Source of the DNA: Vulcanimicrobiota bacterium
GTDB lineage: Bacteria; Vulcanimicrobiota; Vulcanimicrobiia; Vulcanimicrobiales; Vulcanimicrobiaceae
Assembly (NCBI GenBank): GCA_013036315.1
Contig: JAAXMC010000080.1
Location: 1 to 39,140 of the forward strand
DNA: 39,140 nucleotides
Direction: 5' to 3'
The position numbers and the translations under genes were made by a program. Position 1 is the stretch's first letter. Each line of letters begins with the position of its first letter. Positions 24,627 to 28,865 of the stretch are shown piece after piece. A model generated the notes under the pieces. That model was not told where the DNA came from and made no database searches. It saw only the letters and a program-made list of their open reading frames with translations.

Positions 24627-24640
24627 GCCATACATATGGC
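24627..24640 (+). repeat. Left-end hairpin of the TnpB element
   Basis: GCCATA-CA-TATGGC, a perfect 6-bp stem 29 bases before the tnpB ATG. A weaker 4-bp stem GGCC...GGCC spans 24599-24615. Subterminal hairpins like these are recognised by the HUH transposase TnpA in IS200/IS605 elements. The exact left boundary is not visible; TTGAC at 24538-24542 resembles the target motif seen for some members. Confidence 0.4.
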
Positions 24641-24668
24641 GCTCAGCGTTGGTAAGCTAGGGTTCGTT

Positions 24669-25933
24669 ATGAAGCGTGTTGAGCGCATTCGCCTCTATCC
24701 GACCACGAGACAGGCTACAAGGCTTCAGTTTGCTCTCGATATAACTCGGGAGCTTTTTAATGCGCTCCTGGAAGAACGACGTGACGCGTGGAGACGCCGG
24801 CGCATCAGCATCTCCGCGAAACAACAGTACGCCGAAATCACTGCTTTACGGTCGCATGGGCAACGCTTGGACGGTCGAATGAGTGCCGTGTACAGGGAGT
24901 GCGAAGATGCGGTACTACACAGACTGGACCTAGCGATGCGCGCTTCTTTTCGGCGCATCCGACTTGGAGAGAAACCGGGTTTTCCGCGGTTTAAGCCACG
25001 CTCACGTTGGCATCAACTCGAGTTTCCGCACGGTAGCCGCGCTTTGATCTTCGATTCGATGCAGAAGCGTGTCAAAATTCCCAAGATTGGCCTAGTTCGT
25101 CTTCGCAAAGGACGACGAATCCCGGAATGCTTTGGGAGAGCCTGGGTTGTCGAGCGCAATGATCGTTGGTATCTCTGCGTCGAGCACGAAATACGCGTCA
25201 AACCCAAGCGCGCAACCACCCATATCGTCGGTATAGATCGAGGTGTTCATGTGCTTGCGGCGACAAGCAACGGAGATCTGATCAAGAATCTGGCGGTAGG
25301 CGAGAAGCGGAAGGTGGCTGTAGGCCGTCTACAACGCGAAGTAGATCACGCACAAAGAAAGACGCTGCCGGGCGGTGTATCAATCGCAAAGATCCATCGC
25401 GAATTGCGTCAGTTAAGCGATTCGCCCGAGCGAAGGAACACGAAGCCAATGCAAGACGTGACTATGCGCACAAGAAATCTCGGCACATCGTGGATAACTT
25501 TGATTGCATTGGCTTGGAATCGCTTAATCTCAGGCGGATGACACGCAGTGCACGAGGAACAGCTGCACGCCCGGGAAGGTCTATACGGGCAAAGTCAAGT
25601 CTTAATCGCGTCCTATTGGACGCAGGTTTTGGTCTGCTGCGACAGATGATCGAAAGCAAAGCGGAAGAGGCTGGCGTTACGATCGTCACGGTAGACGCAC
25701 GATTCTCCTCACAAACCTGCAGTCGATGCGGGAACTGTGAAAGGGGAAACCGGCGAAGAAGGCGCTTCCGATGTCTCCGTTGTGGTTTCGCAACGCATGC
25801 GGACATCAACGCGGCGCTGGAGATTCGCAGGCGAGCAGAGTTGAAACTGCTCTCGAGTGAGCCACATCCGGCCGAGGAGGCCGGTCGCAGCGCCTTCGCG
25901 CGCGGCGTAGGCTCACACAACGAGGCTAGGTGA
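24669..25933 (+). pseudogene. tnpB: TnpB (IS200/IS605-type RNA-guided nuclease), frameshifted
   Basis: ATG 24669 has AGGG six bases upstream. The N-terminal part KRVERIRLYPTTRQATRLQFALDI-type sequence is the TnpB helix-turn-helix region, followed by the OB/REC-like part. RuvC residues are all present: D in VGIDRGVHVLA, E in CIGLESLNL, D in THADINAALEI. The zinc finger is CSRCGN...CLRCGF. The frame changes at AGA-AAG (25356-25361): the first frame goes on to a meaningless tail ending at 25541. The second carries all remaining TnpB sequence to TGA 25933. One missing A, or a -1 slip at A_AAG, joins them. No tnpA is adjacent. Base composition is lower in GC than the neighbours, consistent with acquisition. 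Confidence 0.88.
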
Positions 25934-26029: not shown

Positions 26030-26039
26030 TAGAAGAAGG

Positions 26040-26206
26040 ATACCTCGCTGTAGTGAGGCGTCCACGCGATACACAGGCCGCTGCCCGGAAACGTCGAGAG
26101 ACGCCAAGCGGGTAGACCAGACTTCGCCGAGTTAAGGCGTCGTTTAAGGCGGCTAAGCCTCCGGGCTTTACGGCGCGTGGTGCCAAAGCAGTCGCGACTG
26201 GGGTAT
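26040..26206 (+). promoter_or_regulatory. M-box (ykoK) magnesium riboswitch
   Basis: P1 forms from ATACC (26040-26044) and GGTAT (26202-26206). In order the sequence shows GTGAGGCGTCC (26053-26063), CTGCCCGGAAACGTCGAGAG then ACGCCAA (26081-26107), a GGGT partner, TTAAGGCGTCGTTTAAGGC-like (26132-26150), CTAAGCCT and GTGCCAAAGCAGTC (near 26179-26192). These are the conserved blocks of the M-box class in the right order and spacing. With bound Mg2+ it should favour the downstream terminator and switch off 26286-28865. This is RNA homology by eye; a covariance search would settle it. Confidence 0.88.
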
Positions 26207-26231
26207 AGAACGCGTTAGCCGTTCCACGCCA

Positions 26232-26266
26232 CGACCGGTCGCTCAGCGAGCCGGTCGTTTTATTTT
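26232..26266 (+). terminator. Intrinsic terminator of the M-box expression platform
   Basis: CGACCGG + TCGC, loop TCA, GCGA + one bulged G + CCGGTCG, then TTTTATTTT (26258-26266). A strong 11-bp stem with a T-rich tail, located between the aptamer and the ribosome-binding site at 26274. Confidence 0.88.
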
Positions 26267-26285
26267 GCGCGAAAGGGGGTGCAAG

Positions 26286-27584
26286 ATGGCGTTTCAGGAC
26301 GGATTCATTTCCGAGCTGGTCGGACGGCGCGCGACCGTCAACGAATTGCCGATCGGCAAAGTCACCGACTTTCTCGTCAACAACCCCGATCAAACGTTTC
26401 CCGAAGTCGACGGGCTGATCATCAAGACCAGCCAAGGCGCGCGATTTGCGTCGATGGATACGGTGTCCGACGTCGATGCCGATGGATACGTAGCGCTGAA
26501 CGCGGCTCCGAAAGTCGCCGCTCCACCGGATGAAGAGGCTCTGTACCTCGTCCTCGATCTGCTCGATAAACAGATCGTGGACGTCGACGGCCGCAAGGTC
26601 GTACGCATCAACGATATCGAGTTGGCGAACACGGGCGGAAAATTGCGCGTCGTCGCCGCCGACGTCGGCGTCAGCGGACTCCTGCGCCGGCTCGGGCTCA
26701 AAAGCATCGGAAAACGTTTCACTCCGTGGCTCTACCACAACGTGCCGCGCACGATGATCGCATGGGATTCGGTCGCGCCGATTCGCGAAAAAAACCCCAC
26801 GCAGATCCGGCTGGCAGTGAAAGAAAGCAAGCTTACGCGCCTCCACCCGAGTGAACTGGCCGAAGTTATCAGCGATCTCTCCGCGCGCGAAGCAGCGGCG
26901 CTCATCCATTCGCTCGACGACGAAACGGCTGCCGACGCCCTCGAGCATCTCGAACCGGTAAAACAACGCGCGATCATTGAAGACATCGGCAGAGAGCGCG
27001 CCGCCGATATCATCGAGGAGATGGACTCGGACGACGCCGCCGACCTTCTCGGCGAACTTCCTGAGGAGCAACAAAGCGAGCTGCTCGCCGAGATGAATCA
27101 GTCCACTGCCGGAGAGTTGCGCGAGCTCGTCAAGTATGAGGAAGACACGGCCGGCGGCCTGATGACTACCGATTACGTGTGGATTTATCCGCACCGCACC
27201 GCGGAGCAGACAATCCACAAGATTCGCGAGATGGCGCCCGAGTCGGAGTTCATCTATTACCTCTACGTCGTCGACAAAGACGAGCGGCTGCTGGGGGTTT
27301 TGACGCTGCGCGCGCTGCTGCTGGCTCCTCCCGAAAACGTGATCGAACGGATCATGGCAGGCGAAGTCGTGACCGTTCCGCCCGAGATGCAGTCGCGCGA
27401 CGTAGCCGCAACGATCGCACGCTACGATCTGCTGGCCGTTCCGGTCGTCGGTCGCGAAGGCAACATGCTCGGCATCGTCACCGTCGACGACGCGATCGAC
27501 GCGATCATGCCCGAGGATCTCGCGAAGGAACTTCCGCGCATCACGCCCCCGCGACGAACGGCTCGCCCGGCGGTCAAAGGCTAG
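26286..27584 (+). CDS. Soluble MgtE-like magnesium sensor (PRC barrel, MgtE-N, CBS pair)
   Basis: 432 residues from ATG 26286 with AGGGGG six bases upstream. PRC-barrel-like strands occupy about 5-135. An MgtE N-domain superhelix covers about 180-280 (MDSDDAADLLGELPEEQ). The linker YEEDTAGGLMTTD (284-296) is the MgtE signature, followed by two CBS motifs (about 290-345 and 355-415). In true MgtE these cytosolic parts bind Mg2+ and gate a five-helix membrane pore. That pore is absent here: the protein stops at KG with no hydrophobic segment. It is preceded by the M-box and followed after three bases by an NRAMP-like transporter. Role as a gating subunit for that transporter is inferred. Confidence 0.88.
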   Translation: MAFQDGFISELVGRRATVNELPIGKVTDFLVNNPDQTFPEVDGLIIKTSQGARFASMDTVSDVDADGYVALNAAPKVAAPPDEEALYLVLDLLDKQIVDVDGRKVVRINDIELANTGGKLRVVAADVGVSGLLRRLGLKSIGKRFTPWLYHNVPRTMIAWDSVAPIREKNPTQIRLAVKESKLTRLHPSELAEVISDLSAREAAALIHSLDDETAADALEHLEPVKQRAIIEDIGRERAADIIEEMDSDDAADLLGELPEEQQSELLAEMNQSTAGELRELVKYEEDTAGGLMTTDYVWIYPHRTAEQTIHKIREMAPESEFIYYLYVVDKDERLLGVLTLRALLLAPPENVIERIMAGEVVTVPPEMQSRDVAATIARYDLLAVPVVGREGNMLGIVTVDDAIDAIMPEDLAKELPRITPPRRTARPAVKG

Positions 27585-27587
27585 CTC

Positions 27588-28865
27588 GTGGTGCACGCGG
27601 TGATGCGCAGGCGAAACTGGTGGCGTTCGCTTCTGTTGCTGATGGCCGTCTTAGGCCCGGGCTTTATCACCGCGTCCGCCGGAAACGACGTCGGGGGCAT
27701 AACGACCTACTCGCAAGCCGGCGCGCAATTCGGTTACAGCATCCTCTGGGTGCTGATTCCGCTCGCGCTCGCTTTAATCGTCGTTCAGGAAATGGCGACG
27801 CGCATGGCCGCCGTCACCGGCAAAGGCCTCGCCGCATTGATCCGTGAGAACTTTGGCGTCCGCGTTTCGTTTCTCGCGATGGCGGCGCTGTTTGCAATAA
27901 ATCTCATCATCACCGCGACTGAGTTCGCCGGCATCGCGGCCGCCTCGGAGATGTTCCATGTCTCCAAATACATCGCGGTCCCGATCGGCATACTGCTCGT
28001 TTTGATTTTCGTATTCGGCTTCAACAGCAAGAGCATCGATCGCGTGTTCGTAGGCTTCTCGCTCATCTATTTCTGTTACATTGCTTCGGCGATACTGGCG
28101 CATCCCGACTGGAAAGCGGTCGCGCATGGCACGTTCGTGCCAGCTCTGAACTTCGGCAACCACCTTTATCTCGTGATGGTCGTGGGATTGATTGGCACCA
28201 CGATCTCGCCGTACATGCAGTTTTTCTTGCAGTCCGCGGTCGTCGAAAAAGGTTCTGACGAACGCGAGCTCGGGCTGGCGCGCGCCGACGTTATCAGCGG
28301 TTCCATTTTGGCAATCGCGATCGCGGGTTTCATGATCATCGCCAATGCGGCTACCATTTTCGCAGCCAACCGGCACGGCGCGCATCTCGCACCATCGCAA
28401 GCAGCGGATTTTGCCGCCGCACTGCGGCCGCTCGCCGGAGAGTGGGCTTCGATCATCTTTGCATTCGGAATACTGAACGCCGGACTCTTTACCGCCACAG
28501 TCCTGCCGCTTTCTACCAGTTACGTTATCTGCGAAGCGTTTGGCTTCGAGGCGGCGCTGGATCGCAAGTTCTCCGAAGCCCCGGTCTTTTTTACGTTGTT
28601 TGCCGTCACTCTGATCGCGGGCGCGGCACTGGTTCTGCTTCCGCACCTTCCTTTGCTCAAGCTGATCTTTTACGCACAGGTAGCGCAGGGCATTTTGCTG
28701 CCACCCGAGCTGGTGCTGATGCTCATCATCATCAACAAACGCACCGTCATGGGCAAATTTACAAACGGCTGGTTCGGCAATACGGTGGCGTGGGCTACGG
28801 TCGCGCTCGTGGGCGCGCTCTCGATCTATTACGTCGTCGTGCAAGTCTTCGGCGGAACGGCCTAG
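27588..28865 (+). CDS. NRAMP-like (SLC11 fold) transporter, probably for Mg2+
   Basis: 425 residues and about 11 membrane helices. GTG 27588 has AAAGG seven bases upstream; ATG 27603 is an alternative. TM1 reads GPGFITASAGNDVGG (23-37) where manganese/iron NRAMPs have DPGN. TM6 reads GTTISPYMQ (203-211) where they have the A-x-x-MPH metal site, so the methionine that selects transition metals is replaced. NRAMP-related magnesium transporters are known to have lost these residues. With the M-box and MgtE-type sensor upstream, Mg2+ is the likely cargo. Direction and coupling cannot be read from sequence. Confidence 0.85.
   Translation: MVHAVMRRRNWWRSLLLLMAVLGPGFITASAGNDVGGITTYSQAGAQFGYSILWVLIPLALALIVVQEMATRMAAVTGKGLAALIRENFGVRVSFLAMAALFAINLIITATEFAGIAAASEMFHVSKYIAVPIGILLVLIFVFGFNSKSIDRVFVGFSLIYFCYIASAILAHPDWKAVAHGTFVPALNFGNHLYLVMVVGLIGTTISPYMQFFLQSAVVEKGSDERELGLARADVISGSILAIAIAGFMIIANAATIFAANRHGAHLAPSQAADFAAALRPLAGEWASIIFAFGILNAGLFTATVLPLSTSYVICEAFGFEAALDRKFSEAPVFFTLFAVTLIAGAALVLLPHLPLLKLIFYAQVAQGILLPPELVLMLIIINKRTVMGKFTNGWFGNTVAWATVALVGALSIYYVVVQVFGGTA

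Follow-up and report, generated by a model that had tools for sequence, protein, structure and literature searches.

The closest described systems are the NrmT operons of Shin et al. (2014, PLoS Genet; PMC4072509). That paper reports M-boxes upstream of NRAMP-related genes, demonstrates Mg2+ transport by C. acetobutylicum NRAMP-related proteins without an accessory protein, and finds that most members of the NRAMP-related group adjoin a gene for the N-terminal cytoplasmic domain of MgtE. The authors proposed an accessory role for this MgtE-like protein, either cytoplasmic feedback regulation or chaperone activity, and treated the riboswitch as a marker of Mg2+ specificity. In the A. capsulatum pair Acp2976/Acp2977, which lacks an M-box, the transporter acted as a Mn2+ importer: its rescue was complete for a Mn2+ transport defect but only partial for a Mg2+ defect, and co-expression of the MgtE-like protein made the rescue no better. 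A literature search, in which most subscription journals were not covered, turned up no later study that tests the accessory protein. Both the operon type and a feedback through cytoplasmic Mg2+ were thus put forward in 2014, ahead of a preliminary description of our locus that inferred such feedback from its sequence.

Two well-studied proteins are the references for the genes themselves. The MgtE channel of T. thermophilus closes when Mg2+ binds at sites Mg2-Mg7, with site residues D91/D247 (Mg4), D226/D250 (Mg5), D95 (Mg6), and E59 (Mg7) (PMC5882242). NRMTs (NRAMP-related Mg2+ transporters), of which EleNRMT from Eggerthella lenta has a solved structure (7qia), are marked by DxxG in TM1 and TxxA/T in TM6 (PMC8806188).

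We analyzed a stretch of 39,140 nucleotides (hereafter the window) from a 57%-complete genome that we place in the phylum Ca. Eremiobacterota on the strength of named contigs nearly identical to it. It holds an operon with the same parts as those of Shin et al., namely an M-box leader, a free-standing gene for an MgtE-N-like protein, and a gene for an NRAMP-related Mg2+ transporter, and the same feedback hypothesis applies to it. The 2014 operons come mostly from Clostridia and Deltaproteobacteria, and Ca. Eremiobacterota appears to be a new phylum for the type. New relative to that account are also a genus without CorA or the MgtE pore, genome-wide co-presence of sensor and NRMT even when they are unlinked, the occurrence of both gene orders, and the retention of gating residues. 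We read the window locus as an M-box-controlled Mg2+ uptake operon in which a free-standing MgtE-type sensor acts on an NRMT, and put the probability of this reading at about 60%.

The M-box (ykoK leader) Mg riboswitch aptamer lies at 26037-26209 on the forward strand, as do all features of the operon given below. It scored 118.5 bits against Rfam RF00380 (gathering score 44) over the full-length covariance model (positions 1-169 of 169), and it is the single M-box detected in the source genome. Folding recovered a Rho-independent terminator just behind it (26231-26266): a GC-rich hairpin with one bulge (26231-26258; -19 kcal/mol) and then the U-run TTTATTTT (26259-26266). A simple terminator scan overlooked this element because its stem is bulged. 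A comparable hairpin with a U-run follows 25 of 35 M-boxes in the window and its relatives versus 3 of 105 shuffled leaders. The M-box thus has an intrinsic terminator as expression platform, one that recurs in relatives, and the element at 26231-26266 is likely its off-switch. The preliminary description had placed an M-box at the head of the gene pair, which these results bear out. Directly 5' of the M-box, positions 24636-25933 hold an IS605-type TnpB gene that spans two reading frames, with the OrfB helix-turn-helix in one and the Cas12f1-like TNB domain in the other; the gene is apparently frameshifted.

The first gene of the operon (26286-27584) starts with ATG at 26286, behind a Shine-Dalgarno-like AAAGGGGG that we read at 26272-26279, and ends with a stop codon at 27582-27584. 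It encodes a soluble PRC-like/MgtE_N/CBS-pair protein of 432 aa, a putative Mg2+ sensor. Pfam detected the MgtE_N superhelical domain (26841-27146, residues 186-287; 1.2e-26) and a pair of CBS domains (27168-27515; 1.7e-18) that stops where MgtE continues into its plug helix and pore. The pore domain itself (PF01769) had no match in the protein or in the source genome, and the protein contains no hydrophobic segment of TM quality; it is therefore not an MgtE channel. Structure searches matched the MgtE cytosolic domain (2yvy/2yvx) with an E-value of about 1e-39, and the AlphaFold model (pLDDT 79) is that of a soluble protein that again matches this domain (E 1e-20). In the model, the N-terminus is predicted to form beta-rich PRC-like parts and the remainder superposes on the MgtE cytosolic domain. 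This fits the earlier identification of the gene as an MgtE cytosolic sensor without a membrane pore. The PRC domain included in that identification stands less firmly: a match is present, at an E-value (4.6e-4) just below the PRC cut-off.

Like the cytosolic domain of T. thermophilus MgtE, the window sensor has MgtE_N, the CBS pair, the EDTAGGLMT linker, and acidic residues for Mg4-Mg7. It differs in lacking the plug helix and pore, in some 165 additional PRC-like residues at its N-terminus, and in having R for E216. D91, D95, D226, D247, and D250 are retained and E59 is replaced by D, so that all six Mg4-Mg7 positions are acidic. Across 122 sensors these positions were acidic in 92-100%, versus a median of 54% at the other 45 acidic reference positions. 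Judged by domains and site residues, the protein would thus belong with the MgtE cytosolic sensors.

The second gene (27588-28865) lies on the same strand and encodes an NRMT-type carrier (Pfam Nramp PF01566, 1.1e-89). The two genes were previously said to be three bases apart. That spacing applies with GTG 27588 as the start codon; in most relatives, however, the conserved protein begins near the position of ATG 27603, and the gap may be 18 bases instead. The closest solved structure was EleNRMT (E 1e-96), versus 7e-24 for the Mn2+ transporter DraNramp of Deinococcus. The TM1 metal-site motif reads D-V-G-G (27687-27698), where EleNRMT has DAGG and DraNramp DPGN; the TM6 motif reads T-T-I-S (28197-28208), where they have TTIA and ATVM, respectively. 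The carrier thus has the NRAMP fold and DxxG in place of DxxN. In TM6 the Thr is present and the Met absent (TTIS instead of A/CxxM), the loss of the methionine being as first proposed, and the final residue is Ser rather than the Ala/Thr of the published signature; Ser is the commonest final state among NRMTs of the phylum. The preliminary description also had AGND replacing DPGN, a reading shifted by three residues. The alignment rules it out because EleNRMT (AGNDAGG) reads AGND as well as the window protein (AGNDVGG): the metal-binding Asp is conserved and the Asn has become Gly. The carrier further shares with EleNRMT the Glu on TM3 and the loss of both TM6 histidines that proton-coupled NRAMPs have. 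At these two positions it differs from EleNRMT, with Tyr for the Trp after the Pro and Leu for Asn. By its sequence, the carrier is an NRMT, that is, a member of the known Mg2+-transporting branch of the NRAMPs.

The M-box, the metal site, and the loss of other channels make Mg2+ the likely substrate. A carrier that moves mainly Mn2+ or another transition metal, with a sensor that responds to that metal, would agree with the rescue pattern of the A. capsulatum homologue in Shin et al. (PMC4072509), and some plasmid-borne pairs sit beside heavy-metal ATPases and ArsR-type regulators. The A. capsulatum locus, however, has no M-box, the element that those authors took to mark Mg2+ specificity, and the window locus has one. 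The window's metal site lacks the soft Met ligand, and CorA and the MgtE pore are missing from its genus, including, for CorA, four relatives that are 94-98% complete. We therefore consider a transition-metal carrier improbable. The A. capsulatum result forbids taking either selectivity or gating for granted in the window pair. Rescue in those experiments was scored at low Mg2+, a condition in which no help is to be expected from a closing gate, so that, as we see it, they did not probe gating.

We scored strong sensors and NRMTs in 118 genomes of Ca. Eremiobacterota, carrying out the genome-wide check that the preliminary description had suggested. Both were present in 88 genomes, the sensor only in 3, the NRMT only in 1, and neither in 26. 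Two of the three sensor-only genomes hold an NRMT truncated at a contig edge and the third is 61% complete; the NRMT-only genome is 67% complete. The genomes with neither gene include four near-complete ones from the window's own family and class (families f1 and f3). Since the genomes are related, the counts are not independent and are to be read as a pattern, not as a probability, and the same applies to Fisher's test on them. Among 93 sensor loci, the NRMT was directly downstream in 48 (in 32 cases behind an M-box), convergent in 3, and unlinked in 42; thus, about 45% of the sensors are unlinked, yet co-presence holds at the genome level. A further 34 M-boxes stand immediately before an NRMT. 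M-box calls were also obtained upstream of five unlinked sensors: one clear (G054), one borderline (G019), two below the Rfam cut-off (G088 and G094), and one (G098) at a sensor that really belongs to a pair split by a contig end. G054 is truly unlinked, so at least one unlinked sensor remains in the M-box regulon. None of six classical DPGN/Met NRAMPs examined from Eremiobacterota had an adjacent sensor, and no sensor-NRMT fusion occurred among the loci examined, the long frames being products of stop-to-stop reading. This part of the preliminary reading, a free-standing MgtE sensor kept together with a Mg-type NRAMP and an M-box, is thus supported.

These genomes also bear on what the sensor's partner is. 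Because it is an MgtE cytosolic domain without a pore, the sensor could be one part of a split MgtE, with the gene for the pore at some other genomic site. PF01769 was above cut-off in none of the 91 sensor-bearing genomes; fifteen others in the phylum do carry it, within frames of MgtE size (433-505 aa). This largely refutes a split MgtE, which we regard as very improbable. A more serious rival is that the soluble protein serves as an adaptor sensing Mg2+ or nucleotides, as a metal chaperone, or as a buffer, and acts elsewhere than on the transport cycle, for example on the folding or turnover of the carrier or on an additional partner recruited through the PRC domain. PRC and CBS domains both serve as general-purpose binding modules, and the many unlinked sensors would suit such a role. 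Chaperone activity is also the alternative that Shin et al. name (PMC4072509). Against this, a non-systematic look at the unlinked sensors noticed no other partner gene, nearly every sensor-bearing genome offers the NRMT as partner, and the conserved residues are those that make MgtE close. We consider this rival unlikely, though not to be dismissed lightly.

A protein search of plasmids returned full-length sensors from three other phyla: Gammaproteobacteria (Citrobacter, Serratia), Bacillota (Alicyclobacillus), and Actinomycetota (Streptomyces, Arthrobacter, Leifsonia, Cellulomonas, Rhodococcus, Mycolicibacterium). In all nine loci that we fetched, the sensor adjoins an NRAMP with DxxG/A and TxxA. 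The order of the genes varies, with the sensor first in some plasmids and the transporter first in others, which suggests repeated rearrangement while the pair stayed together. The association is not strict in the reverse direction: several NRMTs on plasmids stand without a linked sensor. In the eight plasmid sensors compared, D91 is present in seven and D95 and D247 are retained, and Mg5 is changed (D226 to N, D250 to E). On the Leifsonia, Mycolicibacterium, and Acidiphilium plasmids, genes of the MgtC/SapB family are found near those for the NRMT.

Taken together, these results are consistent with gating of the NRMT in trans by the soluble sensor. In its favour are the M-box with its terminator, the NRMT signature and the similarity to EleNRMT; the co-presence of sensor and NRMT in genomes without an MgtE pore and, in the window's genus, without CorA; the plasmid pairs in either order and the classical NRAMPs without an adjacent sensor; and the conserved Mg4-Mg7 residues. 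Against it we weighed the Mn2+-type transporter of A. capsulatum with no added rescue and the C. acetobutylicum NRMTs that transport alone (both from Shin et al., PMC4072509), the NRMTs without a linked sensor, the Mg5 changes in other phyla, and the relatedness of the genomes. Trans-gating, as the preliminary description had it, is plausible and is strengthened by the co-occurrence, the pore absence, and the residues.

In such a scheme, the M-box aptamer would be open at low Mg2+, the terminator would not form, and sensor and NRMT would both be made. At high Mg2+, transcription would stop in the M-box leader. Mg2+ would most likely also fill the MgtE-type sites between the N and CBS domains and compact the soluble sensor, which would then, most likely by direct contact, hold the NRMT in a low-activity state. 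The sensor would thus take over the gating that MgtE and CorA, both missing from the genus, have built in. This soil bacterium places a likely Mg importer under an M-box and, probably, also under protein-level control by a separate soluble copy of another channel's sensor. More tentatively, and at somewhat less than even odds, Ca. Eremiobacterota has largely replaced CorA and MgtE channels by an NRMT that a detached MgtE sensor gates in trans, alongside the M-box on the same genes; a LeuT-fold carrier would then be under a gate that arose in a channel. If true, such a transfer of a gate between unrelated transporter folds would show clearly that transport regulation can evolve by modules. It would explain how NRMTs, here without the fused cytosolic gating domain of MgtE and CorA, escape Mg2+ overload, in a lineage where the sensor-NRMT pair may be the main route of Mg2+ uptake.

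Several other loci carry related parts. In a distant family with large genomes, represented by G017 and G045, full-length MgtE and CorA are retained; both genomes have a divergent sensor next to a DAGG/TTIT NRMT, the two genes being convergent in one genome and co-directional in the other. In other Eremiobacterota, three M-boxes (L133, L121, and L129) stand before genes for proteins of about 700 aa that resemble one another at the C-terminus; L133 and L121, the two searched, gave no Pfam family match. Two more M-boxes head a longer NRAMP (open frame of about 585 aa, DAGA/TTxA) that has no sensor nearby and resembles the actinobacterial plasmid type. Finally, the source genome encodes two more NRAMPs with a third kind of signature, DPAG/VTIS (L002) and DPSG/TTIT (L003). 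Both replace the TM3 Glu by Asp and lack the methionine, neither has a sensor within the fetched stretch, and their relatives stand alone on plasmids of Variovorax and Microvirga.
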